Shown: piece by piece, positions 37,755 to 58,909 of the stretch
Layout of the letters: each line of letters opens with the position of its first letter
How positions within the stretch are numbered: position 1 is the first letter of the stretch
Assembly: GCF_024436035.1 (NCBI RefSeq)
Contig: NZ_JANFNG010000006.1
Location: 124,001 to 188,000 of the forward strand
From: Streptomyces humicola
Lineage (GTDB): Bacteria; Actinomycetota; Actinomycetes; Streptomycetales; Streptomycetaceae
Length of the DNA stretch: 64,000 bases
Direction: 5' to 3'
Program-made: the position numbers and the translations under genes
The notes under the pieces: generated by a model
What the model was told of the DNA's origin: nothing
Database searches by the model: none
The model's input: the letters and a program-made list of their open reading frames with translations, nothing else

Positions 37755-37850
37755 CAGGACCTCCCGGATAGAAGGGATTCTCGGGTTGTGGAATTTCTGT
37801 TAGCTTCGTCACGCTGCGCCTTGAATGACGCAGCGGGTAGGATCTGTTTT

Positions 37851-38576
37851 ATGAACATTCCAAAGCAGTCTTCGACGCTGATTCCATGGAGTGCGGAAAC
37901 AGGGAATGGAATCGCCTGTATATGTATTCCGTGGGCCGGCGCCGGGGCGGCTCCTTTCCGCGCCTGGGCTCCGGCGCTCGCCGACGCAGCCGACGTGTAC
38001 GGCGTCCGGCTCGCCGGACGTGAGAGCCGGCAGACGGAGCCGCCGGCGACTGCCCTCGGTGCCGTCGTCGACGAGCTGGTCCGGGAGCTGACCGAGCTGG
38101 GCGCACCCCGAGTCGCGCTCTTCGGCCACTGCTCCGGGGCGCTGCTGGCCTTTGAGCTGGCGCATGCGCTGCGCCGATCCGGCAGCGCCCCCGAGGTGGT
38201 CCATCTGCTGGTCGCGTCCCAACTTCCGCCGCGTGTCTTCCAGAACGCCCGCGTCGACCAGGATCAGGACCTCGCCCGCTACGTGCCCGAGGAGTTCCGG
38301 CGAGAACCCGAACTGCTCGAGGTACTCCTCCCGATCCTCACCGCGGATATGAAACTGGTCTCGGACTACGCCCGTTCGGCGGACGCCCCCCTCGATGTGC
38401 CGCTCACCGTCGTGTACGGCGCATGCGACGACGAACTCGGCGGCGCCGAGGTCGACGGCTGGCGCCACGAGACCACGGGCCCGACCGCGTTCCGTGAGGT
38501 CGTCGGCGCCGATCATCTCTTCAGCGGCACCGCGTGGCTGGAGCTCGCAAAGACGGTCCGTGCCGTGCTGACCTGA
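37851..38576 (+). CDS. type II thioesterase
   Basis: 241 residues of the TEII family: an IPWAGAGAAPFRAW opening, the nucleophile elbow FGHCSGALLAFELA (Ser near residue 87), an Asp in VVYGACDDELGG, and the late GADHLFSG with the catalytic His. TEII proteins free carrier domains that are blocked by wrong acyl groups and are standard partners of NRPS/PKS modules. Start ATG 37851 gives the usual length. The much longer upstream frame is antisense to the nucleotidyltransferase gene. It serves the NRPS and KS modules of unit 2. Confidence 0.92.
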   Translation: MNIPKQSSTLIPWSAETGNGIACICIPWAGAGAAPFRAWAPALADAADVYGVRLAGRESRQTEPPATALGAVVDELVRELTELGAPRVALFGHCSGALLAFELAHALRRSGSAPEVVHLLVASQLPPRVFQNARVDQDQDLARYVPEEFRREPELLEVLLPILTADMKLVSDYARSADAPLDVPLTVVYGACDDELGGAEVDGWRHETTGPTAFREVVGADHLFSGTAWLELAKTVRAVLT

Positions 38577-38598
38577 GCGGTCCGCCGCCGCGATCCGC

Positions 38599-38859
38599 TC
38601 ACGCATCGCCGAGAAACGCCGCGAGCTGCGCGGGAGTCGGGTGGGAGAAGACGTGGACGATCTTCAGGCGCGGCCAGCGTCGGCGCAGGATGTGGACCAC
38701 CCGCACCACTGTCGCCGACGTGGCTCCCAGGTCGAAGAAGCCCGCGTCCGGGTCGACCAACTCCAGGCCGAGCGCCTCGGCCCACACCGCCGCGATGACG
38801 TCGCCGGGGGCGCCTTCCAGAGCGAAGTCGTTCTCCGGGGCGCTGGTGCGCTCAGTCAT
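38599..38859 (-). CDS. free peptidyl carrier protein
   Basis: 86 residues with a carrier fold: VIAAVWAEALGLELVDPDAGFFDLGATSATVVRVVHIL. The arm serine is in GATSATV (near residue 49), in place of the usual GGDSL or GGHSL. Divergent sequences around the serine often mark carriers that serve a special tailoring step. It follows the LLM gene with an eight-base overlap and ends the KS/PqqD/LLM operon. It may hold the substrate of the LLM-type flavoprotein. Confidence 0.88.
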   Translation of the reverse strand: MTERTSAPENDFALEGAPGDVIAAVWAEALGLELVDPDAGFFDLGATSATVVRVVHILRRRWPRLKIVHVFSHPTPAQLAAFLGDA

Positions 38860-39826
38860 CCATGGCCTCTCGCAGTGTCGTTCCGACCCGGTGCAGATGG
38901 TCGAGATCGCCGGCGTCGAGGACCGTGGCGATCACGCCGTCGATCCCGGCCGCGCGGTACTCCGCGACCTGGCGCCGCACCTCGGCGGGGGTGCCGCAGA
39001 GCGCGAGCCCTCGGGCCGCGCTCGGCGCCACGCCCAGCAGGGATCCCAGCCGCTCCAGCGCTTCCTGGAGCTCTGCCTCGGAATCGGTGACGATCGCGGT
39101 CCCCAGCCAGGTCTTGCTGATCTCGCCGCTGTCGCGACCCACCGCGGCGCACGCCCGTTCGAGGACCTCTATCTTGTGGCGCACCGTGGCGGGTCCGCCG
39201 AAGAAGTTGCACGCGTCCGCGTGCCGAGCCACCAGGGGGATAAGGACGCGTTCGCCGCCGCCGCCGATGAGGATCGGCGGACCGTCGGGATTGACCGGGC
39301 CGGGCACATTTAGTGCTTCGTCGACGCTGTGAAACCGGCCGGAGAACCGTGCGGCGTGCTCGGTGAACATCGCGCGGCAGATCTGGACCGCCTCGTCGAG
39401 GCGTGCCAGACGTTCCCGAGGCGGCTGGAAGTCCATGCCGTAGGCGCGGCACTCCTCCTCGTGCCAGCCGGCGCCTATGCCGAGGACGGCACGACCGCCG
39501 CTGATGATGTCGATGGTGGTCACCATCTTCGCCAGCAGTGCCGGGTTGCGGAATCCATTGCACGAGACGAGCACGCCGAGGCGGGCGGTCGAGGTGACGG
39601 CCGCCAGCGCCGCGAGCGTGGTGTACGCCTCCAGGATCGGTTCGTCCGGCTCGCCGACCGACGCGATCTGGTGGACGTGGTCCATGGTCCACAGGCTGTC
39701 GAAGCCGGATGCCTCGGCAGCGTGCGCGATGTCCACGATGTGCTGGAAGAGCTTGTTGTCCATGACTCCCGGAAAGGAGTAGCCGGCCAGCTGCAAGCCG
39801 ACTCGGGTGATCGCGGGGCGGCTCAT
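38852..39826 (-). CDS. LLM-class flavin-dependent oxidoreductase
   Basis: 324 residues with the luciferase-like monooxygenase TIM barrel pattern: ASGFDSLWTMDHV near residue 40, VTSTARLGVLVSCNGFRNPALLAKMVTTID, SGGRAVLGIGAGWHEEE and the C-terminal GTPAEVRRQVAEYRAAGIDGVI. The group uses FMN or F420 and includes F420-dependent reductases and oxygenases. Similar enzymes act on carrier-bound chains in PKS/NRPS systems. Start ATG 39826 overlaps the PqqD gene stop (ATGA). Its immediate neighbours are PqqD-like and carrier proteins, so a carrier-bound substrate is likely. The cofactor cannot be decided from the sequence. Confidence 0.87.
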   Translation of the reverse strand: MSRPAITRVGLQLAGYSFPGVMDNKLFQHIVDIAHAAEASGFDSLWTMDHVHQIASVGEPDEPILEAYTTLAALAAVTSTARLGVLVSCNGFRNPALLAKMVTTIDIISGGRAVLGIGAGWHEEECRAYGMDFQPPRERLARLDEAVQICRAMFTEHAARFSGRFHSVDEALNVPGPVNPDGPPILIGGGGERVLIPLVARHADACNFFGGPATVRHKIEVLERACAAVGRDSGEISKTWLGTAIVTDSEAELQEALERLGSLLGVAPSAARGLALCGTPAEVRRQVAEYRAAGIDGVIATVLDAGDLDHLHRVGTTLREAMDD

Positions 39827-40173
39827 CCGGCGACTGCCGACTGTGCGAGAGCCGCGGCGTCGGCCGGCGTCAACTCCTCGACGAGACCGAGCTCGAGCAG
39901 CCGCTCGCAGAGGTCGTGCACCGGCCGGCGGACCTCCGCGGCGGACAGTCCCAGCTTCTCGGTCACGCCGTCGACCACCTGGGCGAGGTTCCGGCGCCCG
40001 TCGATGAGCAGCCAGACCACACGCCCGTCGCTGTCGACCACGTAACGGCCGACCCAGGTCTCGAGCAGTACGCCGCCCTCGGTGCGCTCACTCAGTTCGG
40101 CCACCTGACCGGTCATGCGGGCGGTCACGTCCAGTCGGCGGACCAGGGTGGTCTTGTCGTTGACAGTGCTCAT
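39823..40173 (-). CDS. PqqD-family protein
   Basis: 116 residues of the PqqD family, a winged-helix fold used in RiPP pathways to bind precursor peptides. Pieces that fit are ETWVGRYVVDSDGRVVWLLIDGRRNLAQVVDGV and the C-terminal LCERLLELGLVEEL. No precursor peptide or radical SAM maturase is visible nearby. Here the gene is locked between a KS-ACP and an LLM oxidoreductase by ATGA overlaps on both sides. It may serve as a docking or scaffold protein for carrier-bound chains. That would be an unusual use and is inference. Confidence 0.8.
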   Translation of the reverse strand: MSTVNDKTTLVRRLDVTARMTGQVAELSERTEGGVLLETWVGRYVVDSDGRVVWLLIDGRRNLAQVVDGVTEKLGLSAAEVRRPVHDLCERLLELGLVEELTPADAAALAQSAVAG

Positions 40174-42548
40174 GAGGTTGTCTCCATAGCTAGGGTCCGA
40201 TCGAGGAAAGCTGCGCTGGCAGCGATCGTGGGAGCGATGAACGGCAGGTCGACCGCAATGTCGAGCCCGAGGCCCTCGTTCAGGCGGGCACCGATCTCCA
40301 CCGCGTACAGGGAGTCGCCGCCGAGGTCGTCCACGAAGTGTGCGTCGTGCGCGATGTGCTCAACGCCCAGGACTTCGCACCAGACCTTCTCGACGTAGGC
40401 GACGACGCTCGCCGCATCGGCGCGGCTCGAGCCACGCGGCTCGACGTCCACGGGATCCGGCTGGACCTCGGGGCGCTCGAGCCAGAACCGACGGCGCGTG
40501 AACGGATACGTCGGCAGCGGAACCCGGCCGCGCGGCTCGTCGCCGTAGTAGGCGGCCCAGTCGACAGCGACTCCCGCTCGCCACGCCGCGGCCGCCACCT
40601 CGGCCAGGTCGAACGACGGGCCGACCAGGACCTGACCGGCCCGCTCGCGGACGGATCCGGCGTCGGCGCCGGTGCAGGCTTCGACAGCTGCCGCCAGTGA
40701 CGTGGGATCGGCGCCGCCGGCAAGCCACTGCGCGGCCGGACGTGCCCAGTCCGGCGCGTCCATCCGGGAGAAGGTCAGCCCCAGGCGGCGCAGGATCCGG
40801 ACAACGCCGAGCGCAGCCAGCGTGCCGGCCTGGTGCGGGGCGAGGTCTGTGAGCCCCAGCTGCCCGGTGAGCCCGGCTTCTTCCCTGAGCTCGGCGACCG
40901 CTGGGCCCAGTAGCGGCTCGGTGGCGAGCAGCCGCTCTCCCATTCCGGCCAACTCGTCCGGCGTCCCGTGGATTGCCAGAGACCACCGTGTGGTGGGCCG
41001 GCCGGCCTCGGCGGGCGAGCGGAGCCGCGCGACGGCCTCGGCCCGGTCGGCGGCGACAGCCGCCCAGCGGCGGGTGAAGCGCGCCCGGCCCACCGCGAGC
41101 GTGTGCGCGATGTCGGCCAGCGCGGACAGATCCAGTGACGGCGCCGCCGCGAGCCGGTCGGCGAGTCGCTGCCGCATCCGCTCCAGCTCTTCGTCCGAGC
41201 GGGCCGACAGCGCGAGGACCTGACGCGAGCGCGCGGCGTCCGCGGCCGGAACGGCGGACACCGACTCCAGAACCACGTGCGCATTGGACCCCCCGAGGCC
41301 GAACGAGCTGACGCCCGCGACACGCGGTCCCTCGGCGTCCCAGGCCCGTGTCTCGGCGGTGACGGTGAAGGGGGTCGAGTCGAGGTCGATCTCGGGGTTC
41401 GGGGCGCGGAAATGCAGTGTTCCCGGCATGACGGCCCGCTCGACCGCCAGGGTCGCCTTGATCAGCCCCGCGACGCCCGCCGCCGCGTCGGTGTGCCCGA
41501 TGTTGGGCTTGACCGCACCCAACGTAAGGGTCCGGGGCTGCCGGTGGGGAGTCGCGAAGACGCGCCGGAGCGCCTCGAACTCGACCGGGTCGCCGATCGC
41601 GGTCCCAGTGCCGTGGGCCTCTATGTAGCCGACCTGCTCAGGTGTGATGTCCGCGCGCGCGAGCGCGGTGCGGATGACCGTTTCCTGGCCGTCGATATTC
41701 GGGACGGTGAACCCGGCGCGTGATCCGCCGTCGTTGTTGACCGCCCATCCACGGATCACAGCCCTGCGGCGGTCGCGACCGGCCTGCGCGTCGGCGTCGC
41801 GCCTGAGCACCACGATTCCGGCGCCGGAGCCCGGTATCGTGCCGGAAGCCCCGGCGTCGAAGGCGCGGCAGCGCCCGTCCGCCGACAGGATCCCGCCCTC
41901 GGTGTAGGTGTAGCCGTCGACGTCGGGCATGAGCAGGCTCACGCCACCGGCCAGGGCGATGTCGCAGTCGCCGGCTGCCAGCGACGCACAGGCGAGCGCC
42001 ACGGCGCTGAGCGCTGTGGCACAGCCGGTCTGCACGGTGATCGCGGGCCCGGTGAGACCGAGCTTGAAGGCGAGTCGCGGTGCGAGGAAGTCCTTCTCGT
42101 TGGCCAGGGTGATGCGCACGTCGCCGCCGCGTCCCGCGCGGGCCTCCGTCGGGGCGACGAACTCGCGGAAGTAGTGGTTCTCACCGGAGCCGACGAACAC
42201 ACCGACGACCGCATCACGTTCCCCGGCGTAACCGGCGTCCTCCAGCGCCGCGGACGCCACTTCCAGCAGCACGCGCTGCTGAGGGTCCATGGTGACGGCC
42301 TCTGCCGGTGGTACGCGGAAGTGGTCGGCGTCGAACGACTCGATGTCATCGACCTTCGCGACGGCACGCACATGGCGGCCGTCGCTCCCGTCGTCGTCCG
42401 GCACGGACTCACCCTCATCCGGACGGCTGACCGACTCGACGCCGTTGACAAGGTTCGTCCAGTACTCCTCGACATCGTCGGCTCCTGCGAAACGTGCCGC
42501 CATACCGATCACTGCGATGGGGCGTGCGTGAAGTGGGTTCGGCTGCAT
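40170..42548 (-). CDS. KS-ACP polyketide protein without an acyltransferase
   Basis: 792 residues. A ketosynthase fills about 1-440 with all three catalytic residues: Cys in VQTGCATALSAV near 176, His in EAHGTGTAIGDP near 311, and His in KPNIGHTDAAAG near 350. A 250-residue linker follows, ending in the post-AT motif PLPTYPFTRRRFW but lacking the GHSxG active site of an acyltransferase. The C-terminal ACP has DDLGGDSLYAVEIG near 744. It should extend or condense one acyl unit, with the extender loaded by a separate enzyme, or it may run a non-elongating condensation. Start ATG 42548 has AGGAG eight bases upstream. PqqD, LLM and PCP genes are coupled behind it. Confidence 0.88.
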   Translation of the reverse strand: MQPNPLHARPIAVIGMAARFAGADDVEEYWTNLVNGVESVSRPDEGESVPDDDGSDGRHVRAVAKVDDIESFDADHFRVPPAEAVTMDPQQRVLLEVASAALEDAGYAGERDAVVGVFVGSGENHYFREFVAPTEARAGRGGDVRITLANEKDFLAPRLAFKLGLTGPAITVQTGCATALSAVALACASLAAGDCDIALAGGVSLLMPDVDGYTYTEGGILSADGRCRAFDAGASGTIPGSGAGIVVLRRDADAQAGRDRRRAVIRGWAVNNDGGSRAGFTVPNIDGQETVIRTALARADITPEQVGYIEAHGTGTAIGDPVEFEALRRVFATPHRQPRTLTLGAVKPNIGHTDAAAGVAGLIKATLAVERAVMPGTLHFRAPNPEIDLDSTPFTVTAETRAWDAEGPRVAGVSSFGLGGSNAHVVLESVSAVPAADAARSRQVLALSARSDEELERMRQRLADRLAAAPSLDLSALADIAHTLAVGRARFTRRWAAVAADRAEAVARLRSPAEAGRPTTRWSLAIHGTPDELAGMGERLLATEPLLGPAVAELREEAGLTGQLGLTDLAPHQAGTLAALGVVRILRRLGLTFSRMDAPDWARPAAQWLAGGADPTSLAAAVEACTGADAGSVRERAGQVLVGPSFDLAEVAAAAWRAGVAVDWAAYYGDEPRGRVPLPTYPFTRRRFWLERPEVQPDPVDVEPRGSSRADAASVVAYVEKVWCEVLGVEHIAHDAHFVDDLGGDSLYAVEIGARLNEGLGLDIAVDLPFIAPTIAASAAFLDRTLAMETTS

Positions 42549-42631
42549 ATTAAGAACTCCTGGAGGATCAAGGTGCCCTGCGGCCACTCAGCAGGCGGCG
42601 GCAGCGCGACGTACGAAGACAAGCGTGAGAA

Positions 42632-42665
42632 ACCACCCGGCCGCGAAAGGGGCCGGTCCGGTGGT
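42632..42665 (-). terminator. hairpin between the A-PCP and KS genes
   Basis: ACCACC-CGGCC pairs with GGCCG-GGTGGT across a short loop, with a three-base bulge. It lies in the 182-bp gap after the A-PCP stop and before the KS start. It may terminate or attenuate the A-PCP transcript. No long T-run is present. Confidence 0.4.
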
Positions 42666-42730
42666 GCCGGCGAGGCCTTCAGCGCGCGGGCCGAGCGAAT
42701 GGCCGCTCGACAGCGGTCGACGGCACCGGC

Positions 42731-44566
42731 TCACCCCGCACTTCGGGCACGGACCCGCTCGACGAAGTCGGCGAGACGCGGTGCTTCGAACAGCGCGCGC
42801 ACCGGTACGTCCGCGCCGAGTTCCTGGCGCGTGCGGCTGACGACCTTCATCACCATCAACGAGTGTCCGCCGAGGGCGAAGAAGTCGTCCGCGGACCTCA
42901 CCTCGGCAACTCCGAGCTCCCCGGCCCAGATACCGGCCACCGCCGCTTCGAGGGAGTCGGTATGGGAGTGATGTGCCTCGGCCGGGTCCACACCCCTCGT
43001 CACCGCACGAGCCTGGTCGAGCAGTGCCCGGCGATCGACCTTGCCGTTGGGCGTCAGCGGCATGCGGTCCAGGATCCGCAGTTCATTGGGGACCATGTGG
43101 CCGGGCAGCCGATCGCTCAGGAAGGCACGGAGCCCGTCCGCGTCCGGGCCGCCGGAGCGGACGGTCGCCCAGGCGAGCAGCCGGGACCCCACCGACTCGC
43201 CGGTGTCCGTCACGACGCAGGCGTCCACGACGTCCGGGTGTGCCTTGAGCGCCGCACCGATCTCGCCGAGTTCGACTCGGTACCCACGGACCTTCACCTG
43301 CTGGTCGCGCCGTCCGACGTAGAAGAGCTGGCCGTCGGCCCCCGCCCGTGCGAGATCGCCACTGAGGTAGGTCCGGCGCTGGTCCTGCGGCCCCCAGGAC
43401 GCCGTGCGGAACGCGCGTGCGGTGGCCTCGTCGTCGTTGAAGTAGCCACGGGCCAGGCCGGGTCCCGAGACCCAGATCTCGCCGACCTTGCCCACCGGAG
43501 TAGGCGCGCCATCCTCGTCCCGCAGCGAAACGGCCAGGTCGGACAGCGGCACACCGATGGGGCTGCCGGTGTCGGCGGCCGCGTCCTTCGCCGTGATCCG
43601 GCGGTGGGTGACGTGGACGGTCGTCTCGGTGATCCCGTACATGTTCACCACCCGGGGGTGTTCGTCCCCTCGACGGCCGAACCATCCGCCGAGCGAGGCC
43701 GGGTCGAGCCGTTCACCGCCGAGGATGATCAACCGCAGGCGGTCGAGCCGGGCTGGCCGGCCCTCGTCGGCAGTGGCCAGTGCGGCCAGGGCCGAGGGCG
43801 TCTGGCTGAGGACCGTGACACCCTCGCGGTCGATCAAGTGGAGAAGCTCGTCGGGCGTACGGGCTTTGTCGTCGTCGACGACGACAAGACGGCCGCCGAA
43901 AAGCAACGCCCCCCACATCTCCCACACCGAGAAATCGAAGGCGTAGGAGTGCAGCATCGTCCACACGTCGTCGGAGTCCGGACCATAAAGGTCTGCCGTC
44001 GCGGTCATGAGCCGGGTGACGTTGCGGTGGGTGATTTGCACACCCTTAGGGGTTCCGGTCGATCCCGACGTGAACATCACGTAGGCGAGATCATCCGGCT
44101 CCACCTTTACGCTCGCCGCCGGGCAGTCCCGATCCGAGGTCTCGCCGGCGAACACGAGCGGGCCCGGGTGCCATTTCCCAGCGCGACCGGCGAGCTCCTC
44201 ATCGGTCAGAAGCACCCGGGGAGCCACCCGCTCGATCAGGCTCTCCAAGCGGGCGTCGGGATAGCGGGGGTCGAGCGGCACATAGGCGGCGCCGGCCATG
44301 AGAACGCCGAGAACGGCCGGCACGACCTGGCGGCGGGCGACGAACACCGGCACCAGATCGCCCGGCCGCACACCGGCGGCGGCCAGCCGACCGGCTATGC
44401 ATCCGGCCAGGTCGTGGAGCTCCGCGTAGGACATCGAAGTACCGCCGGCGGTGAGTGCCGTGGCCTCGGGGCTCGTGGCCGCTTGACGGGAGAACCAGGA
44501 GTGCAGCGTATCGGTGGCTACCGCAAGGTCAGTCAATTCAGGTGTATTGATTTCCACTTCCGGCAA
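42731..44566 (-). CDS. NRPS A-PCP, threonine-like pocket
   Basis: 611 residues: adenylation domain (FTSGSTGTPKGVQ near 165, FDFSVWEMW near 210, NMYGITETTVHV, YLSGDLAR, QVKVRGYRVELGE, NGKVDR) and a carrier domain with LGGHSLMVMK near 566. The pocket residues read D-F-W-S-I-G-M-V-H plus the usual Lys, one change from the threonine code D-F-W-N-I-G-M-V-H-K. Threonine or a close relative (allo-threonine, serine, diaminobutyrate) is a reasonable prediction. There is no condensation domain, so the C domain at 22427 or another partner must act. Start TTG 44566 follows GAGGGA. Confidence 0.9.
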   Translation of the reverse strand: MPEVEINTPELTDLAVATDTLHSWFSRQAATSPEATALTAGGTSMSYAELHDLAGCIAGRLAAAGVRPGDLVPVFVARRQVVPAVLGVLMAGAAYVPLDPRYPDARLESLIERVAPRVLLTDEELAGRAGKWHPGPLVFAGETSDRDCPAASVKVEPDDLAYVMFTSGSTGTPKGVQITHRNVTRLMTATADLYGPDSDDVWTMLHSYAFDFSVWEMWGALLFGGRLVVVDDDKARTPDELLHLIDREGVTVLSQTPSALAALATADEGRPARLDRLRLIILGGERLDPASLGGWFGRRGDEHPRVVNMYGITETTVHVTHRRITAKDAAADTGSPIGVPLSDLAVSLRDEDGAPTPVGKVGEIWVSGPGLARGYFNDDEATARAFRTASWGPQDQRRTYLSGDLARAGADGQLFYVGRRDQQVKVRGYRVELGEIGAALKAHPDVVDACVVTDTGESVGSRLLAWATVRSGGPDADGLRAFLSDRLPGHMVPNELRILDRMPLTPNGKVDRRALLDQARAVTRGVDPAEAHHSHTDSLEAAVAGIWAGELGVAEVRSADDFFALGGHSLMVMKVVSRTRQELGADVPVRALFEAPRLADFVERVRARSAG

Positions 44567-50254: not shown

Positions 50255-50950
50255 ATGGCTCTCGACACCGACGGTTTCGCCCTCATCGACCTGCCCCCCA
50301 CCTCGGCCGAGGTACTCGCCAGCTACGAGGACCTGCCGGTCGACGCCTACATGGGCCATGGCACCCGGTACAAGAAGTTCTCGCAGTACCGGTTGTCGGC
50401 GGCGCGGGACGGTGCGGGATGGGACTTCGAACGGCTGCCGCACCGGGACTACACCGCGTACCGGAAGTTCAACCCGGTCGGCGGCGGCAAGCGGCGCACC
50501 TACCTCCCGGTGGCGGTGGACTTCACGCCGCTGATCGACGCGGGGGCGCGGTCGCTCGGGCTGGACCGGAGCGAGGACTGGCAGATCAATCTGCACCAGA
50601 ACCGCACCTGTGCCGCACCCGGACGCCCCGGTCCCCTCACCCCGGAGGGCGTGCACCACGACGGGCACGAATTCGTGATGATCGGCGTGCTGCGCCGGGA
50701 GCGGATCGCCGGCGGCGAGACCCGGCTGTGGCGGCCGGACGCCCCGCAGCCGTTCTGGACCGGGGTGATCGGGCCCGACCAGGCCGTACTCCTCGACGAC
50801 CGGGCGATCGCCCACGACGTCACCGATGTGGTGGCGGCCGGTGACGAGCCGGGCCACCGGGACATCTTCATCGTCGCCTTCTCCCGCTGGAGCGAGAAGT
50901 GGTACGGCGACGAGCACGACGCGGCGGCCCTGACGGACAGCGAGAGCTGA
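50255..50950 (+). CDS. 2-oxoglutarate/Fe-dependent dioxygenase
   Basis: 231 residues of the 2OG-Fe oxygenase family found among amino-acid hydroxylases. The iron facial triad is visible as H-x-D in EGVHHDGHEFVMIGVL (about residue 135) and the distal His in DDRAIAHDVTDV. Nearby are the conserved LHQNRTCA and the late Arg (HRDIFIVAFSRW) for oxoglutarate. Family members hydroxylate free amino acids such as isoleucine or threonine precursors. Start ATG 50255 follows AGGAAGGA, 224 bp after the preceding operon. It is the first gene of unit 3. The substrate is probably a free amino acid. Confidence 0.85.
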   Translation: MALDTDGFALIDLPPTSAEVLASYEDLPVDAYMGHGTRYKKFSQYRLSAARDGAGWDFERLPHRDYTAYRKFNPVGGGKRRTYLPVAVDFTPLIDAGARSLGLDRSEDWQINLHQNRTCAAPGRPGPLTPEGVHHDGHEFVMIGVLRRERIAGGETRLWRPDAPQPFWTGVIGPDQAVLLDDRAIAHDVTDVVAAGDEPGHRDIFIVAFSRWSEKWYGDEHDAAALTDSES

Positions 50951-50976: not shown

Positions 50977-52056
50977 ATGGACACCATGGACACCGACTTC
51001 ACTGCCCTGTTGGACAACAGCCTGCCGGCCGCGCTCCGGGCACTGCTCGCCCTGCCCGCCGACGACCTGCGGCGCGCCAGTGGGGACTACGGCTTCCGCG
51101 GTGAACTGGCCGCCGCCTGCCGCGCCCTGACGGCACGCGCGTACGGCAAGGCAGAGCACACCGCGCTGGAAGAGGTGCACGCGGTGCTGGCCCTGATCTA
51201 CGACCGGGACTTCTCCGGGGTCGCGGTCACCGACACCGACCGCGAGGAGCAGCCGATCCTGCGGGACGTCGCCGCCCTCCTGGAACACGCCGTACTGCGT
51301 CACGAGACGGAGCGCGTACCCGCCCGGGAGCTGACCTGCTACCCGGAGACAGGACCGGAGTACGTGCGCTGGCTCAAGGCGATGGTGAGCCGGCATCCCG
51401 CAGGCTGGCACCCGCTCTACCACCAGCGCCTGGCCGAGCACGGCAGCGTCGAGGACCTGCGACTGCTGCTCGCTCAGGAGACCAATCTCGACCCGCGCTT
51501 CGACGACATCCTCGCCGCGATGCAGATCGGCCGGCAGGGCGCGGAGAAGATGGAGATCGCCGCCAACTACTGGGACGAGATGGGCAACGGCGACCACACC
51601 CTGGTGCACACCACGCTGTTCGGCCGAGCGCTGGAGGCGGTCGGCGCCGATCCGCGCTACATACGCGAGACGTTCCTGCCGGAGGCCGCCGTCTCCGGCA
51701 ACATCTCCTCCTTGCTGGCGCTCTCCCGCCGCCACTACTACAAGGCGGTCGGCTACTTCGGGGTCACCGAGTACCTGGCCCCGCGGCGCTTCCGGTGCGT
51801 CGTCGACGCCTGGCGCGGTCATGACCTCGACGAGGTCGGCATCGTCTACCACGACCTGCACATCGGGGTGGACGCCGGACACGCGGCCGGCTGGTTCAAG
51901 AACGTGGTCAGCCCGCTGGTGACCGCGGACCCGCGGGTCGGCCGGGAGATCGCGCTGGGCGCCGCGATCCGGCTCAACACCTCGAAGGACTACCTCGACG
52001 CCCTGCTGCGGCGCATGCACGCCACCGAGCGGGTCGCCGCCTCGGCGGCCTCCTGA
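50977..52056 (+). CDS. haem-oxygenase-like diiron protein (HDO type)
   Basis: 359 residues with the all-helical haem-oxygenase-like fold and candidate diiron ligands in order: LLAQETNLDP (Glu), AEKMEIAANYWDEMGNGDHTLVHT (Glu/Asp/His), and DEVGIVYHDLHIGVDAGHAAGW (Asp/His pair). This superfamily includes N-oxygenases and C-C or C-N cleaving enzymes in natural product pathways. A weak ribosome site precedes ATG 50977, and a second ATG lies three codons later (50986). It follows the 2OG oxygenase by 26 bp. A test should ask whether it oxygenates nitrogen or cleaves an amino acid. Confidence 0.78.
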   Translation: MDTMDTDFTALLDNSLPAALRALLALPADDLRRASGDYGFRGELAAACRALTARAYGKAEHTALEEVHAVLALIYDRDFSGVAVTDTDREEQPILRDVAALLEHAVLRHETERVPARELTCYPETGPEYVRWLKAMVSRHPAGWHPLYHQRLAEHGSVEDLRLLLAQETNLDPRFDDILAAMQIGRQGAEKMEIAANYWDEMGNGDHTLVHTTLFGRALEAVGADPRYIRETFLPEAAVSGNISSLLALSRRHYYKAVGYFGVTEYLAPRRFRCVVDAWRGHDLDEVGIVYHDLHIGVDAGHAAGWFKNVVSPLVTADPRVGREIALGAAIRLNTSKDYLDALLRRMHATERVAASAAS

Positions 52057-52070
52057 AGGGAGGACCACCG

Positions 52071-52949
52071 GTGCGCCAAGACACCTGGCATCCCGCCGAC
52101 TTCGTCAAATACGAGGCGCTGGGCAACAACTACGTCGTCGTCGACCCGCGGTACGCCGCCTTCGCACCGCTGCCTGAGAACGTCCGGCGGGTGTGCGACC
52201 GGAACCGGGGCCTCGGCGCCGACGGCCTGCTGTACGGACCGTTGCCCGCCGCCGACGGCTTCCGGCTGCTGACCTTCAACGCGGACGGCTCCGAGTGCGG
52301 CGGCAGCGGCAACGGACTGCGGATCTTCGCCTGGTACCTGCGCGAATCCGGCCACACCGAAGCGGACGTGATGACCCTGCGCACACCCTCGGGGACGTCC
52401 ACGGCGACGATCGTCGACGCGGACAGCGGCGTTGTGCGCGTCGGCCTCGGCACCGCCCGCCCCGACAGCGGCGCCGTCGGGGCGCGCGGTCCGGCCCGCA
52501 CTATGCTGCGCGAGCCCCTGGACGCCGCGGGCCGGCGGTGGGAGGCCGGCTGCGTACGGCTGGGCAGCCCGCACTGCGTGCTCCCCCTCGCCGACGCTCC
52601 CGCCGACGCGGGGCTGGCGCGCCGGGTGGGCGCCGCGGTCAGCAGCCATGACCTCTTCCCCGACCGGATCAACGTGGAACTGCTGCACGTCACCGACCGC
52701 GAGAACCTCAGCATCGAGGTCTTCGAGCGGGTGGCCGGGCATGTGCCGGCGTCCGGCAGCGGTGCCGCCGCCGCGGCGTACGTGGCCCACGCGCGCGGCC
52801 TGTCCGGCCCCCGGGTCACGGTGCACATGCCCGGCGGCCGGGTCACCGTGGACATCGGCGAGGACGGAGCGGTGTCCCTCACCGGCGAAGTCGGTCCGGT
52901 ACTGCGCGGGCACTGGGCGCCGCGGCTCGCACGATCGCTGTCGGGGTGA
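52071..52949 (+). CDS. DapF-like isomerase with Cys-to-Ser pair
   Basis: 292 residues of the diaminopimelate epimerase fold: a KYEALGNNYVVVD opening, the substrate segment LTFNADGSE, then GSPHCV and PDRINVELLHV. In DapF two cysteines act as acid and base in C-G-N-G and A-C-G-x-G. Here both are serine: SGNG (Ser79) and ASGSG (Ser228). Cys76, three residues before Ser79, is not in the catalytic position. The pocket glutamate of GAGET reads His224. So it is unlikely to be a normal epimerase. It may be a dehydratase or isomerase, much as Ser/Thr replacement changes proline-racemase relatives, or a binding protein. GTG 52071 follows GGGAGGA. Confidence 0.85.
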   Translation: MRQDTWHPADFVKYEALGNNYVVVDPRYAAFAPLPENVRRVCDRNRGLGADGLLYGPLPAADGFRLLTFNADGSECGGSGNGLRIFAWYLRESGHTEADVMTLRTPSGTSTATIVDADSGVVRVGLGTARPDSGAVGARGPARTMLREPLDAAGRRWEAGCVRLGSPHCVLPLADAPADAGLARRVGAAVSSHDLFPDRINVELLHVTDRENLSIEVFERVAGHVPASGSGAAAAAYVAHARGLSGPRVTVHMPGGRVTVDIGEDGAVSLTGEVGPVLRGHWAPRLARSLSG

Positions 52950-52953
52950 CCCG

Positions 52954-54057
52954 ATGACGACCGCGCTCACCGACGACGGGTACCCCATGCACCGCTGGTT
53001 CTTCGAGGACGCGGCCGGCCGCTACGACCTGGACCTGGGCGACAGCTACCTGGACTGCGGATCGGTGGACGACCTGCCGTACCCCGCCGGCCTGTCGCTG
53101 GACTACGGCAGTAACCGCGGCAGCGTCCCGCTGCGCGAGCTCGTCGCCGGCCGCTACGGCCGGGACGCCGCCGACGTGGGCGTCACCCATGGCGCCCAGG
53201 AGGCGCTCTACCTGCTCCACCGGGTCCTGCTGCGCCCCGGCGACCACGTGGTGGCCTTCACCCCCGGGTGGCCGCAGGCCTGGGAGGTGCCCACCGAACT
53301 GGGCTGTCGGGTCGACCGCGTGGGCACCACCCCCGACGGCGACCCGGACATCGCGCGCGCGGTGCGGCTGATCGGCCCGCGCACCAGGGCCGTGGTGCTC
53401 AACTCCCCCTGCAATCCCACAGGACGGCGTGTGCCGGAGCGGGACGTGGCCTCGCTGGTCACCGCGCTGCGCGCGCACGGCAGCCACCTGATCCTGGACG
53501 AGGAGTACGTGGCCGACCTCGCCCGCGACTCGCTGCTCGGCCGCTACGAACGGGCCGTCTCGGTCTCCGGCGTCTCCAAGGTGTACGGCTTCCCGGGCCT
53601 GCGCACCGGCTGGATGTGCGGGCCCGCGGACCTGGTGGCGGCCGCCATGGAGCGCAAGCACTCCACCACCCTCGCCAACTCCGTGCTCACCGACGCCCTG
53701 GCGGCCGAGGTGCTGCGGCGGCACGACCACTACCTCGACCGCTACCTGCGGCTGACGTCCGGCGGCATCGAGGTGCTGCGCGACTGGGTGGCGCGGCACC
53801 CGGACGTCTTCCGGCTGCTGAAGCCGCAGGGCACGCCGTTCGCCTGGCTTGTGATGACCGTCGCCGGCACTTCGCTGGCCTTCTGCCGTGAAGTGCTGCG
53901 CGCCAGGGTGCTCCTGATGCCAGCGGAGGTCTTCGGCACCGAGCGCGGGCTGCGGATCACCTTCGCCCGCGAGGAGTCCGTCCTGCGCGAGGGGCTGCGC
54001 CGCATCGATGCGGTGCTCGCCGCGCACGGCCACAGCGCGGGCCGGGCGGACCGTTGA
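52954..54057 (+). CDS. PLP enzyme, class I/II aminotransferase fold
   Basis: 367 residues with the fold type I pattern: SLDYGSNRGSVPLRELVA, VTHGAQEALYLLHRVL, LNSPCNPTGRRVP, LDEEYVADLAR (the pyridine Asp replaced by a DEEY motif to be checked) and SGVSKVYGFPGLRTGW with the Schiff-base Lys. The pattern resembles aminotransferases and also capreomycidine-synthase-like cyclases, which use this fold for a beta-replacement on a hydroxylated arginine. With a 2OG oxygenase and a DapF-like protein upstream, a hydroxylate-then-cyclise logic is possible. This is inference. It starts four bases after the previous stop. Confidence 0.85.
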   Translation: MTTALTDDGYPMHRWFFEDAAGRYDLDLGDSYLDCGSVDDLPYPAGLSLDYGSNRGSVPLRELVAGRYGRDAADVGVTHGAQEALYLLHRVLLRPGDHVVAFTPGWPQAWEVPTELGCRVDRVGTTPDGDPDIARAVRLIGPRTRAVVLNSPCNPTGRRVPERDVASLVTALRAHGSHLILDEEYVADLARDSLLGRYERAVSVSGVSKVYGFPGLRTGWMCGPADLVAAAMERKHSTTLANSVLTDALAAEVLRRHDHYLDRYLRLTSGGIEVLRDWVARHPDVFRLLKPQGTPFAWLVMTVAGTSLAFCREVLRARVLLMPAEVFGTERGLRITFAREESVLREGLRRIDAVLAAHGHSAGRADR

Positions 54058-55406
54058 CCACGACACACACCGCCGACCTGTGGCCGCGGCTGCTGCCACC
54101 CTGCGCCACGGCCGACGACCCGCGCGCGGCGGTCCGGCTGTTCGACGGCGTGAAGGGAGCCGACGGCCCTTGGCGTCCGGTGCGGCCGCTGCTGGTGGGC
54201 GCGGACACGTACCGGGACCTGGTACGGCTGTCCCGGCGCGCGGCCGAACTGGTGCTGTCCGCCGCCCGGCGCCGGGCGGACACGGCCCGCGACCTGCTGG
54301 CGGCGCTCGGCTCCCGGCCGGAGGACTACCCACTGCTCGACCCCGGCGACCCGGTCGAAGACCGGCTGCTGACCGCGGTCCGCCCGGACATCCTCATGGA
54401 GGGCGGCGTCGCGCGGTTTGTGGAGCTGAACGTTGACGGGGCACTGGGCGGCGTACTGCAGGCCGATCTGCTCAGCGGCCGCTTCCTCGACCGCTACCGT
54501 CGCTGCGGCCTCGCCAGCCGGCTCGGTCTGTCCGCGGCGCCGTCCGCCGTGCGGGCCAGGGCCGAGGCGCTGCGCACCTTCCTCGGACTGCGCCGGGACG
54601 CCGCCGCCCCGGTGCTCATGCCGCACTTCACCGGGGGCCATCTGCCGGGGCTCGACGACTGCGCCCGGTTCGCCGACTGGCTCGCGCCCGTCTTCCGGCA
54701 CGCGCGGGACCACGGCATGCGGATGTTCACCCATCCCCTGACCGCGCTGACCACCGCACCCGACGGGACCCTGCTGGCCGGCGGGAGAGCGGTCGGCGCG
54801 GTGTTCCGGACCTTCGTCAGCCACGGGGAGCCGCCAAGCGCCGGACTGACGGCGCTCCGCCGGGCGCTGGACGCCGGCGCCGTGCGAATGTTCACCCCGG
54901 AGAGCACCATGCTGCTCACCAACAAGATCACGCTGGCCTGGCTCTGGGACGACCTGGACCTGCTCGACCCGGCGGACCGGCGGCTCGTCGAGACCCACGT
55001 GCCCAGGACCGTTCGGCTCCGCCCCGTCGACCGCGACACCCTGGGCCTCGCCGTGCGGGACCGCGCCGGCTGGGTGCTCAAGCCTGCCAACGGCTTCGGC
55101 GGCAGCGGTGTCGTCGTCGGCGCCGCTGCCGCCGACGCGGACTGGCGGACGGCGCTCGACCACGCGGCCCGGCAGGGCGGGCACGTGCTCCAGCGGTACG
55201 TCGACGCCGACCGGACGGCCATGCGGTTCGTGCGCACCGCGGACGGCGAGGTCGCCGACGCCGAGGTGCCGTACGTGCTCGGACCGTTCCTCTACGGACT
55301 GCGGGGCAGCGGCCTCCTGGTGCGGCACGGCACGCCGGCCGCGGCCGACGTGCTCAACGCCGGCCGGGGAGCTGCCATGAACACCGCCCTGCTGGCCGGT
55401 GGGTAG
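54054..55406 (+). CDS. circularly permuted-type ATP-grasp enzyme
   Basis: 450 residues. The order of motifs is unusual for ATP-grasp: FVELNVDGALGG (the metal-binding E-x-N) comes at about 122-135, and VLKPANGFGGSGVVVG, the ATP-binding lysine loop, near 340-355. This matches circularly permuted, glutathionylspermidine-synthase-like enzymes that form amide bonds. The TTG start overlaps the PLP gene stop (TTGA). It should couple a carboxylate to an amine with ATP. Together with the ATP-grasp at 57566 it supplies two candidate peptide bonds, so unit 3 can build a di- or tripeptide without an NRPS. Confidence 0.78.
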   Translation: MTTTHTADLWPRLLPPCATADDPRAAVRLFDGVKGADGPWRPVRPLLVGADTYRDLVRLSRRAAELVLSAARRRADTARDLLAALGSRPEDYPLLDPGDPVEDRLLTAVRPDILMEGGVARFVELNVDGALGGVLQADLLSGRFLDRYRRCGLASRLGLSAAPSAVRARAEALRTFLGLRRDAAAPVLMPHFTGGHLPGLDDCARFADWLAPVFRHARDHGMRMFTHPLTALTTAPDGTLLAGGRAVGAVFRTFVSHGEPPSAGLTALRRALDAGAVRMFTPESTMLLTNKITLAWLWDDLDLLDPADRRLVETHVPRTVRLRPVDRDTLGLAVRDRAGWVLKPANGFGGSGVVVGAAAADADWRTALDHAARQGGHVLQRYVDADRTAMRFVRTADGEVADAEVPYVLGPFLYGLRGSGLLVRHGTPAAADVLNAGRGAAMNTALLAGG

Positions 55407-55409
55407 CCG

Positions 55410-56741
55410 ATGTCCCGAGGCCTGACAGACCGTCCGAGGCACGCGCTGAAGCTGGATTTCCGGTTCCGTACCTTCCAGGTGTCGGTACTCGGCTCGAACC
55501 TCGCAGACGGCATATACCTCGTCACCATCCCCCTGCTCGCCCTGTCGCTGACCGGTTCCGCGCTCGTCGTGAGCGCGGTCGGCGTGGCGTTGCGCGCGCC
55601 GTGGCTGCTGCTCACCCTGCCCGCCGGCGTGGTGGTGGACCAGTTCCCCCCGCTCACCGTGATGCGGGTGGCGTCCATGACCCGGCTGCCGCTGGTCGCG
55701 GTGCTGTGCGTGCTCGCCTGGGAGCGGCTGCTGCCCGTCTGGGGGCTGGTGACCGCGGCCTTCCTGATCGCCGGGTGCGGCACCTTCATCGACGTGGCGG
55801 CCCAGTCCTTGGTCCCGCGGATGGTCCCCAAGCCGCTGATCCCGCGGGCCAACGCCAACCTGCAATCGGGCCTGACGCTAACCCAGCAGTTCGCCGGCCC
55901 CGCGCTGGGCGGCGTGCTGGCGGCGGTCACCGGCGCCGGGATCGCGCTGTCGACCACGCTGTACGCGGCGACCCTGTCCGGCCTGCAGGCGCTGCAACGG
56001 CGGCTGCCCGGGGGCGGTGACCGGGACGCGGGCGCCACGCCGGGCGGACGGTTGACGCTGCGGGCGATGTTCCGGGACCTGGGCGAGGGCGCCCGGTACT
56101 TCCGTACCCGGCGCGATCTGATCGGCCTGGCGGTGGTCGCCGCGACCGGCAACCTGGCGTTCGCCTCGGTCACCACGATGCTGCCGCTGTGGGTGGTCGC
56201 CCCGGCCCGCCTGGGACTGCCCAAGTCGGCGCTGGGGTTCATCGCCGCGGCGCCTGCGGTGGGCGGCCTGCTCGCCGGGGCGGTGGCGGCGCGGATGCTG
56301 AGCCGGTTCGGCGGGCGCGCGGTGCTCGGCTTCTGCGCGCCGGCCGTCGGTCTGTGCTTCGTGCTGATCGCGGTGCCCAGCCCGTTCTCTGCCTTCGGGG
56401 CGATGGCGTGCTACGGGGGGTTCACCGTGACGCTGAACGTGATGAGCATGTCGCACCGCCAGTCGACCATCCCGGAGCACCTGTTCGGCCGGGTCAACGC
56501 CGTCTACCGGTGGATCGTGCTGGGTGTCTCCCCGTTCGGCGCCGGGCTCGGCGGCCTGGTGGCCGACCACTTCGGTCTGGCGGCCGTCTTCCTGTGCGCC
56601 GGGGCGTTCGCCGGCGGCTCCGGGGTCCTGCTGCCCGCCCTGCTCTTCCGCGCTTCACCTCCGGATCCGGACCGGAGCCAGGACCCCGGACCGGACCGAC
56701 GTACCGACACATCGATGTATCGACTAGGACGTGACGCATGA
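55410..56741 (+). CDS. MFS exporter
   Basis: A 443-residue major facilitator protein, about twelve membrane segments. Its N-terminal half is like the enterobactin-exporter-type MFS group (LLTLPAGVVVDQFPPLTVM for the loop 2-3, FIDVAAQSLVPRMV, ARANANLQSGLTL-type segment). The last 20 residues are a charged tail (PDPDRSQDPGPDRR). It lies within the unit 3 operon between the ATP-grasp and deacetylase genes and overlaps the latter (ATGA), so it probably exports the unit 3 peptide. No other exporter is in this operon. Confidence 0.88.
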   Translation: MSRGLTDRPRHALKLDFRFRTFQVSVLGSNLADGIYLVTIPLLALSLTGSALVVSAVGVALRAPWLLLTLPAGVVVDQFPPLTVMRVASMTRLPLVAVLCVLAWERLLPVWGLVTAAFLIAGCGTFIDVAAQSLVPRMVPKPLIPRANANLQSGLTLTQQFAGPALGGVLAAVTGAGIALSTTLYAATLSGLQALQRRLPGGGDRDAGATPGGRLTLRAMFRDLGEGARYFRTRRDLIGLAVVAATGNLAFASVTTMLPLWVVAPARLGLPKSALGFIAAAPAVGGLLAGAVAARMLSRFGGRAVLGFCAPAVGLCFVLIAVPSPFSAFGAMACYGGFTVTLNVMSMSHRQSTIPEHLFGRVNAVYRWIVLGVSPFGAGLGGLVADHFGLAAVFLCAGAFAGGSGVLLPALLFRASPPDPDRSQDPGPDRRTDTSMYRLGRDA

Positions 56742-57499
56742 CCGATCCGCTCCTCGAACTGCCCTCCGACTGGCAGCGCGCCCTGGCCATCGTCGCCCAC
56801 CCCGACGACGTGGAGTACGCGGCCGCGGCCGCCGTCGCCACCTGGACCGACCAGGGCAAGGAGGTCGTCTACCTGATGGCCGGTCGGGGCGAGTGCGGCA
56901 TCGCCGGCGTGGATCCGGAGAAGGCCAAGCCGATCCGGGAGGCGGAACAGCGGGCCAGCGCGGCGGTGGCCGGGGTGACCCGGGTCGAGTTCCTCGACCA
57001 CCCCGATGGCCTGATCGAGTACGGTCCGCGGCTGCGCCGGGACTTCGCGCACGCCATCCGGCGGCACCGGCCGGAACTCCTGGTAACGCTCAATCACCAC
57101 GACCACTGGCGGGGGGTGTCCTGGAACACGCCGGATCACCGCCACGTCGGCCGGGCCGCACTAGACGCGGTGGCGGACGCTGCCAACGAGCACCTGTTCC
57201 CGCAGGAGGGCCTGGATCCGTGGGAAGGCGTGCGCTGGCAGGCGGTGGCCAACTCCCCTTACCCGACCCACGCTGTGGACGTGACGTGGGCGGTGGAACG
57301 CGGCGTACGGGCGGTGCTAGCCCACGACACCTACCTGCGCGCCCTCACCGACGAGGACCCGGAGGAGTACGTACGCGCCTTCCTGGGGCGGAACCTGGCC
57401 GCCGCTGGCGCGCGGTTCGGCGGCCGGCCCGCGGTGCCGTTCGAGGTGTTCCACCGCGACCCCTACCGCGAGCGCGCCGGCCAGGTCCACTACCGCTGA
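56738..57499 (+). CDS. PIG-L family deacetylase
   Basis: 253 residues of the LmbE/PIG-L family. The zinc site AHPDDVEYAAAA is near residue 20, the second metal ligand is in NTPDHRHVGRAALDA near 130-145, and the rest of the fold is present. These enzymes remove N-acetyl groups in mycothiol and glycopeptide synthesis, or act as amidases in other pathways. Here it may remove a protecting acyl group after the ATP-grasp steps, or open a lactam. Start ATG 56738 overlaps the exporter stop (ATGA), with AGGACG upstream. Confidence 0.88.
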   Translation: MTDPLLELPSDWQRALAIVAHPDDVEYAAAAAVATWTDQGKEVVYLMAGRGECGIAGVDPEKAKPIREAEQRASAAVAGVTRVEFLDHPDGLIEYGPRLRRDFAHAIRRHRPELLVTLNHHDHWRGVSWNTPDHRHVGRAALDAVADAANEHLFPQEGLDPWEGVRWQAVANSPYPTHAVDVTWAVERGVRAVLAHDTYLRALTDEDPEEYVRAFLGRNLAAAGARFGGRPAVPFEVFHRDPYRERAGQVHYR

Positions 57500-57565
57500 C
57501 CCGCGGCCCGTGTCCCGTCGGTCGAAGCCCGGGTCGTGGGCCCCGAACTCGAAAGGAGCCGCGCT

Positions 57566-58909
57566 GTGCACATCGCGGTCGTAGACGCCAACCCCCCTTC
57601 GCTGCGGGCCCTCCGGCTCGCGAAGACGGCCGGGCACCGAGTGACCTTCCTCCAGCCGCCGCTGACCCAGTACGCGCTCACCGGCGAGAACCTAAGCATC
57701 GTCTACTCGGCGGACACCCTCGTCGACGGGATCGACACCACAGACCCGCAGGCCGTGGTCGCCGCGCTCGGCGAGTGCCACGCGCGGCACCCGATCGACG
57801 TGGCCGTGGCATTCCAGGAGCTGGCGGCCGAGGCCGTCGCCCACGCCTGCCGCGAGCTGGGCCTGCGCGGTACGGCACCGGAGGCGGTCCTCATGGCACG
57901 GCGCAAGGACCGTTGCCGGGCGGCGCTGGAAACCGCCGGGCTGGACTCCGCCGCCTACGTGCTCGCCGCCGACCAGGACGCGGCGCTCGCCGCGGCGGAG
58001 CGCATCGGCTACCCAGTGGTCCTCAAGCCGCCGTCCGGCAGCGCCAGCCTGCTGTCCCACGTGGCCCGTGACACGGCCGGGGCGCGGAAGGCCGCCGCCG
58101 ACATCCTCGCCGGCCAGGACGCGGTGCCACCGCACTGGGTTACCCAGTTCAGCCGGGGCGTGCTGGTCGAGGAGCTGCTGGTGGGCCGGATGGTCTCGGT
58201 GGAGATCGGCGCCCGGGACGGCGCGTTCTTCCCGTTCTGCGTCACTGGCAGGTTCCGATCACCGCGCAACGAGGTGATCGAACTGGGGTCGTGCGTCCCG
58301 GCGGACCTGGCCCCGGTGCAGAGCGCGGCGTGCGTGGCGTACGCCGAAGCGGTCTGCCGCGCGATCGGCGCCGACTTCGGCATCTTCCACCTGGAGATCA
58401 TGCTGACCGAACGCGGCCCGGTGCTGGTCGAGTTCAACCCGCGCATCATGGGCGGCGGCCTGCCCAACTGCTACCGGCACGCCACCGGCCAGGAGATCTA
58501 CGCCTCCTTCCTGGACCTGGTGACCGGTGCACCGGTACGCGTCCCCGAAGGCTTCGCGGGGTGCACCGCCGTCTTCGTGGTCACCGCCGAGACCGGCGGG
58601 CGCCTGCCGAAGACGGCGTCCCTCGCCCCGCTGCACGACGACGACGGCGTGCTCGAGGTGCTCGGCTTCGACACCTACCGGACCGGGCCCGGCCGCCTGG
58701 TCGTGCCAGGCCAGACCGTGGCCCGCTTCATCCTGCGCGCCCCGGACCGCAGGACGGCCGTCGCCCGGGGCACGCGGCTGCTGCACCGGCTGGAGGAGAC
58801 GCTGGGGCTGACCTTGATGACGGGCGACAAGGACAGCGAGGGCGGGACGGCGATGCTTCATACCCCTCCATCGCACTGCCGATCACGAGCCTCAGTCGAC
58901 CTGACGTGA
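57566..58909 (+). CDS. ATP-grasp ligase, carboxylate-amine type
   Basis: About 447 residues: an N-terminal Rossmann-like preATP domain (HIAVVDANPPSLRALRLA), YPVVLKPPSGSASLLSHV for the ATP lysine, VLVEELLVGRMVSVEIG, and FHLEIMLTERGPVLVEFNPRIMGGG for the metal-binding E-x-N. It resembles L-amino-acid ligases and carnosine-synthase-like enzymes that make dipeptides. Start GTG 57566 follows AAAGGAG. The final ~20 residues (HTPPSHCRSRASVDLT) are unlike the fold's usual end, and the gene stops at the island's debris zone, so the C-terminus may have been replaced by read-through after a deletion. It is the last gene of unit 3. Confidence 0.85.
   Translation: MHIAVVDANPPSLRALRLAKTAGHRVTFLQPPLTQYALTGENLSIVYSADTLVDGIDTTDPQAVVAALGECHARHPIDVAVAFQELAAEAVAHACRELGLRGTAPEAVLMARRKDRCRAALETAGLDSAAYVLAADQDAALAAAERIGYPVVLKPPSGSASLLSHVARDTAGARKAAADILAGQDAVPPHWVTQFSRGVLVEELLVGRMVSVEIGARDGAFFPFCVTGRFRSPRNEVIELGSCVPADLAPVQSAACVAYAEAVCRAIGADFGIFHLEIMLTERGPVLVEFNPRIMGGGLPNCYRHATGQEIYASFLDLVTGAPVRVPEGFAGCTAVFVVTAETGGRLPKTASLAPLHDDDGVLEVLGFDTYRTGPGRLVVPGQTVARFILRAPDRRTAVARGTRLLHRLEETLGLTLMTGDKDSEGGTAMLHTPPSHCRSRASVDLT

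Follow-up and report, generated by a model that had tools for sequence, protein, structure and literature searches.

A DapF-like protein with serine in place of both catalytic cysteines, encoded in a belactosin/hormaomycin-type cassette of Streptomyces humicola

The window, i.e., the whole stretch of 64,000 nucleotides of Streptomyces humicola DNA analysed here, carries a gene for a homologue of the diaminopimelate (DAP) epimerase DapF, which lies within the following series of genes:

50255–50950, + strand: Fe/2OG dioxygenase (PF10014, 4.6e-44), homologue of the BelL/HrmJ-type nitrocyclopropanases
50977–52056, + strand: haem-oxygenase-like diiron oxygenase, HDO (PF14518, 1.3e-35), homologue of the BelK/HrmI-type lysine N-oxygenases
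52071–52949, + strand: DapF homologue of 292 aa, BelM/HrmT type, with Ser79 and Ser228 in place of both catalytic cysteines
52954–54057, + strand: PLP-dependent enzyme of the aminotransferase fold, VioD/GntC (capreomycidine/enduracididine synthase) type (GntC 207.9 and VioD 197.8 bits, both below the cut-off)
54054–55406, + strand: ATP-grasp-like protein (weak, sub-threshold similarity to glutathionylspermidine synthase/glutathione synthetase)
55410–56741, + strand: MFS efflux transporter (PF07690, 5.7e-26)
56738–57499, + strand: PIG-L type de-N-acetylase (PF02585, 3.1e-25)
57536–58909, + strand: ATP-grasp amide ligase, dapdiamide-synthase-like (PF13535, 6.3e-11)

The first four genes are separated by 26, 14, and 4 bases, respectively. 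The Fe/2OG dioxygenase is 67% identical (E 1e-108) to a protein of solved structure, 9dq0/8jms; 9dq0 in turn shares 99.6% identity with the 2OG enzyme encoded in L073, a homologous cassette, and from this context is presumed to be a nitrocyclopropanase. The HDO shares 55.6% identity over 320 aa with HrmI (PDB 9n1a; E 1.6e-117). Since both a BelK/HrmI-type and a BelL/HrmJ-type gene adjoin it, the DapF-like gene is the BelM/HrmT member of the BelK-BelL-BelM cassette of belactosin and hormaomycin, an assignment made by gene context and published description, not by BelM/HrmT sequences; the identities of the two neighbours, taken together with PMC13108848, favour this reading. In the cassette as described, lysine is converted to 6-nitronorleucine by the HrmI/BelK-type oxygenase, and the latter to 3-(2-nitrocyclopropyl)alanine by the BelL/HrmJ-type Fe/2OG enzyme, while BelM/HrmT "may encode" DAP epimerases supplying lysine (PMC10764440). 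An earlier reading made from the sequence alone, referred to below as the sequence-only reading, placed the DapF-like gene in an operon with a 2OG hydroxylase and a PLP enzyme. Genes of both kinds are indeed present, but the supposed hydroxylase belongs to the BelL/HrmJ group and the HDO had been overlooked.

The genes at 52954–58909, encoding the PLP enzyme, the two ATP-grasp-type proteins, the MFS transporter, and the PIG-L protein, are kept wholly or in part with the cassette at three other loci (L064, L066, and L117), and no known product could be matched to this gene set. A VioD/GntC-like PLP gene follows the BelM-type gene in many cassettes, adjoining the cassette in L023 and L064–L077 and lying near it in L030. 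On the opposite strand, at 36918–44566, there are genes for a ketosynthase-ACP, an adenylation-PCP, a free ACP, and a luciferase-like monooxygenase, which constitute either a separate PKS/NRPS-type cluster or the other half of the cluster containing the DapF-like gene.

The DapF-like gene starts with GTG, has the ribosome binding site GGGAGGA and no internal stops, and its GC content by codon position (0.76/0.56/0.91) reflects normal high-GC codon use. Its product matches the DapF profile TIGR00652 with 177.7 bits (cut-off 114.65) as well as PF01678, and its AlphaFold model (pLDDT 94.3) has the inhibitor-bound DapF 9mro as the top structural match. In the alignment to solved DapFs, which is unambiguous, Ser79 stands at Cys75 and Ser228 at Cys224 (numbered as in the closed structures of Anabaena DapF), so that the motifs read FNADGSECGG-S-GNG and VPA-S-GSG instead of the catalytic pair [C]GNG and A[C]GTG of DapF. 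The protein is confirmed to be an intact DapF-fold protein in which serine replaces both catalytic cysteines, as the sequence-only reading had stated. That reading also pointed to the replacement of the GAGET glutamate by histidine; the change is real (His224) but uninformative, and was rejected as evidence, because this position varies in the comparison panel of 22 Cys-type DapFs, with Glu in five and Ile in 13 of them. A second DapF of the same genome, encoded on another contig (G000:C8:53395), is canonical Cys/Cys; the DapF-like gene of the window is thus not the only copy, and it sits in a biosynthetic cluster instead of a housekeeping context.

Homologues were collected from 395 Streptomycetaceae genomes, GTDB contigs, and plasmids, which yielded 31 distinct sequences, counting the protein of the window, from Streptomyces, Streptacidiphilus, Actinoplanes, Thiomonas (Betaproteobacteria), and a plasmid of Agrobacterium vitis. 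With the two Cys columns left out of the tree, all of them come together as a single group (SH-aLRT 100). The Cys75 column contains Ser in 30 sequences and Asn in one, the Cys224 column contains Ser in all 31, and Cys occurs in neither. Because a clade of this size lacks Cys at both positions, the serine state must be ancient and fixed, and strain-specific drift or a sequencing error can be rejected. Cysteine in the homologues, with serine limited to this strain, was the outcome that the sequence-only reading had named as its refutation when proposing this comparison, and the clade displays the opposite pattern. For close pairs of the DapF-like gene dN/dS amounts to 0.22–0.43, indicating purifying selection, though at roughly double the value for the two partner genes.

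In Anabaena DapF with a bound inhibitor, Asn66, Asn164, Asn197, Glu215, and Arg216 serve as ligands of the distal L-amino acid, whereas the reacting carboxylate is bound by the backbone amides of Gly76, Asn77, Gly225, and Thr226 (PMC12039745). In the Ser clade four of the five distal ligands (Asn66, Asn197, Glu215, and Arg216) are found in 31 of the 31 sequences, as is His166, while the fifth, Asn164, a ligand of the distal carboxylate, is kept in 15 and replaced by Val, Ser, or Thr in the others, Ser being present in the protein of the window. Of the proximal anchors, Asn77 and Gly225 are likewise invariant (31/31), Gly76 is kept in 27/31, and the position of Thr226 is occupied by Ser or Ala. 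It is also worth mentioning that Cys76 (52296–52298), three residues before Ser79, is present in all 31 members of the clade versus two of the 22 Cys-type DapFs.

A phylum-wide actinobacterial sample served as a control and revealed that serine replaced the DapF cysteines several times within Actinomycetota. In three genomes (G658, G493, and G749) the sole DapF is Ser/Ser (L137, G658:C2:80982; L141, G493:C131:47257; L149, G749:C13:26192); it forms a separate branch of the tree, and its gene lies between miaA and the gene for LL-DAP aminotransferase. These proteins are apparently housekeeping DAP epimerases without Cys, and either the Ser/Ser pair supports DAP epimerisation or the pathway has been altered in those lineages. 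The existence of such sole Ser/Ser DapFs means that the pair alone neither proves a new activity nor excludes epimerisation, and Ser/Ser as a signature unique to the cassette was rejected, as other actinobacterial DapFs have become Ser/Ser or Ser/Cys independently. In another actinobacterial group (L126, L127, L131, L132, L143, L147, and L153), several members of which have two DapF copies, the copy that was read is Ser/Ser and its motif is ASA[AT]G, whereas the DapF homologues of L129, L130, L134, L135, L146, L148, and L154 are Ser/Cys and require two origins on the tree.

The control bears directly on the possibility that the protein of the window is still a DAP epimerase, with serines as bases, that raises the lysine supply for the cassette. 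Such a role would agree with the wording of the review on belM/hrmT, with the retention of all distal DAP ligands except one, and with the three genomes in which DAP epimerisation may tolerate Ser/Ser. We nevertheless consider it unlikely: a canonical Cys/Cys DapF is already encoded elsewhere in the genome, no other lysine-pathway genes were recognised among the cassette neighbours scanned, the distal carboxylate ligand Asn164 is Val, Ser, or Thr in half of the clade, and exchange of Cys for Ser hinders catalysis in the DapFs and racemases studied (PMC12039745). The protein is most likely derived from a DAP epimerase but no longer one, and its annotation as a DAP epimerase or lysine-supply enzyme is doubtful.

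Serine in these positions does not by itself predict dehydration either, as the sequence-only reading had supposed by analogy with the proline racemase superfamily, since Ser occurs alike in a Ser/Thr dehydratase and in a true Ser/Cys epimerase of that superfamily (PMC4113996), as well as in the housekeeping Ser/Ser DapFs. The Ser/Thr members being trans-3-hydroxyproline dehydratases (PMC4113996) is the point in favour of a dehydratase or eliminase acting on a hydroxylated amino acid, an activity that we regard as highly improbable. The protein of the window matches PF01678 and gave no proline-racemase family match in the Pfam scan, and its Ser/Ser pair differs from the Cys/Thr or Ser/Thr pair of the trans-3-hydroxyproline dehydratases. 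A hydroxylated substrate is not expected when the neighbours are homologues of a nitrocyclopropanase and a lysine N-oxygenase, the adjoining 2OG enzyme falling in the nitrocyclopropanase group and in no known hydroxylase group; according to the review, moreover, the hydroxylated analogue is not turned into a cyclopropane (PMC10764440). The suggested dehydration or isomerisation of hydroxylated amino acids made by the 2OG enzyme thus finds no support, while the more general suspicion of a different activity is strengthened by the clade-wide change being tied to a biosynthetic cassette.

In the 395 Streptomycetaceae genomes an adjoining DapF-like gene is present in 19 of the 20 cassettes with HDO and 2OG genes, all 19 BelM-type genes lie beside both of these, and none of the five 2OG loci without an HDO has a DapF-like gene (Fisher p 1e-4 for the co-occurrence, with no correction for the relatedness of the genomes). 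Among plasmids, both records with HDO and 2OG genes also carry the DapF-like gene, which was not detected at the four HDO-only and the two 2OG-only loci examined. Plasmids of NBC_00158, NBC_01276, NBC_00726, and S. lavendulae (L191–L194) encode an HrmI-like oxygenase with 43–47% identity to the HDO of the window, next to which neither a 2OG nor a DapF-like gene was seen; VlmB-like and flavin-reductase genes are found in two of these four stretches. The lone cassette lacking the DapF-like gene, G100:C14 (L108), represents a natural deletion, and the same genome has a second, complete cassette; the gene order in L108 is EamA-HDO-2OG-Mo-AKR-PLP-OCD. One Actinoplanes member of the clade (L036) is found in an NRPS context, where the Pfam scan detected neither HDO nor 2OG within 10 kb. 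The cassette spans two phyla, with Actinomycetota on the one hand and Thiomonas and Agrobacterium on the other, and its downstream genes differ, encoding a molybdopterin oxidoreductase, which judging by the review would be BelN-like, in some cassettes and a VioD/GntC-like PLP enzyme in others. Because these downstream genes vary, the DapF-like gene follows the oxygenase pair and not the remaining pathway, suggesting that its product acts at the stage of the nitro intermediate.

Such tight linkage could also be expected of a non-catalytic partner, i.e., a carrier, chaperone, or scaffold binding the nitro intermediate or the two oxygenases. The near-obligate co-occurrence with both oxygenases, the dN/dS above that of the partners, the loss of catalytic residues with retention of binding ones, and the solved E. 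coli DapF–RppH complex, in which the fold acts as a binding partner, make this a strong rival, even if we hold it to be rather improbable; the near-invariance of the two serines (31/31 and 30/31) is at odds with it and suggests a chemical role.

Handling of the nitro intermediate is the probable role of the protein of the window. Its place in the cassette, the absence of both catalytic Cys throughout the clade, the kept binding residues, and the DapF fold, all directly established, are best explained, if still tentatively, by a BelM/HrmT cassette component that binds 6-nitronorleucine and moves or holds the C6 proton or the nitronate, where both the substrate and the proton transfer are what we infer. 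The acidity of a C-H beside a nitro group greatly exceeds that of the alpha C-H of an amino acid. 6-Nitronorleucine is isosteric with diaminopimelate: the two agree in chain length and in the L-amino-acid end, and the nitro group takes the place of the reacting carboxylate. Its L-amino-acid end would be held by Asn70, Asn201, Glu219, and Arg220, and its nitro group by the helix N-termini at SGNG and SGSG, so that the C6-H would sit between Ser79 and Ser228. The C6 proton might then be moved by the hydroxyls or by bound water, thiolates being unneeded given the acidity of the nitro-adjacent carbon. The outcome could be formation or protection of the nitronate for the cyclopropanase, which requires C6-deprotonated 6-nitronorleucine (PMC10764440), or else proton exchange or epimerisation at the nitro-bearing carbon. 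More specifically, a cofactor-free nitroalkane/nitronate tautomerase or nitro-carbon epimerase of the DapF fold, with Ser-based formation or protonation of the nitronate between the lysine N-oxygenase and the nitrocyclopropanase, is conceivable, though on balance doubtful.

The protein might also be a racemase or epimerase that acts on the alpha carbon, with Ser as the base and with lysine, 6-nitronorleucine, or else the nitrocyclopropyl amino acid as the substrate. The fold and anchors are those of an amino-acid racemase, and a 4-hydroxyproline epimerase of a related superfamily, with a Ser/Cys pair, uses Ser as a base (PMC4113996). With the alpha end in the reacting site, however, nothing would fill the conserved L-amino-acid pocket, and the known cassette intermediates are L-configured, 6-nitronorleucine being described as L, which makes this activity about as unlikely as lysine supply.

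Several observations count against a proton-transfer role at 6-nitronorleucine. BelK and BelL suffice in vitro, and the C6 proton can be lost non-enzymatically at pH 7.5, a step that BelL itself accelerates (PMC10764440); an additional proton-transfer enzyme is therefore not strictly needed and the protein of the window may be an accessory one. The kept residues would bind DAP equally well and do not single out 6-nitronorleucine, half of the clade has lost the distal ligand Asn164, the first Ser is Asn in one member of the clade, one cassette (G100:C14) does without the gene, although its genome has another copy, and the gene has roughly double the dN/dS of its partners.

The cassette itself was described previously, with a tentative annotation for its DapF-like gene. 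No study of BelM/HrmT function was found in the literature searched, which did not include the main primary papers; nor was the loss of Cys in BelM/HrmT-type proteins and its consequence for their annotation, an earlier discussion of which in the primary papers is possible. In that literature the DapF-like gene, the third one conserved in the nitrocyclopropane cassette, was assigned a lysine-supply role by analogy, and the clade-wide loss of Cys together with the kept amino-acid pocket makes this assignment testable. A role at the nitro intermediate, if true, would explain the recruitment of a diaminopimelate epimerase, the substrate of which is isosteric with 6-nitronorleucine, and would give biocatalysis a further tool, an enzyme that handles nitro compounds.

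Compared with known systems, the protein of the window resembles DapF of Anabaena (9mro), E. coli (4ijz), and Haemophilus (1gqz) in structure (Foldseek TM 0.80–0.87, 30–35% identity), in the distal L-amino-acid ligands, and in the anchors at the helix N-termini; it differs from them in the Ser/Ser pair, in Ser or Ala at Thr226, in the loss of Asn164, and in its location in a biosynthetic cluster, the canonical DapF being encoded elsewhere. With the sole DapFs of L137, L141, and L149 it shares Ser/Ser, but these have an independent origin on the tree, the miaA/LL-DAP aminotransferase context, and Gln in place of His166. The proline racemase superfamily, represented by the Ser/Cys 4-hydroxyproline epimerase B9JQV3 and the Ser/Thr trans-3-hydroxyproline dehydratase B9K4G4, has Ser as the first base and the same general fold, but belongs to another Pfam family, acts on cyclic imino acids, and has Cys or Thr as the second residue. 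The closest counterparts, likened by context and description, are BelM of belactosin and HrmT of hormaomycin, putative DAP epimerases whose genes form the same three-gene set with BelK/HrmI-type and BelL/HrmJ-type genes (PMC10764440), whereas the cluster of the window differs from theirs by the VioD/GntC-like PLP enzyme, the ATP-grasp enzymes, and the PIG-L protein.
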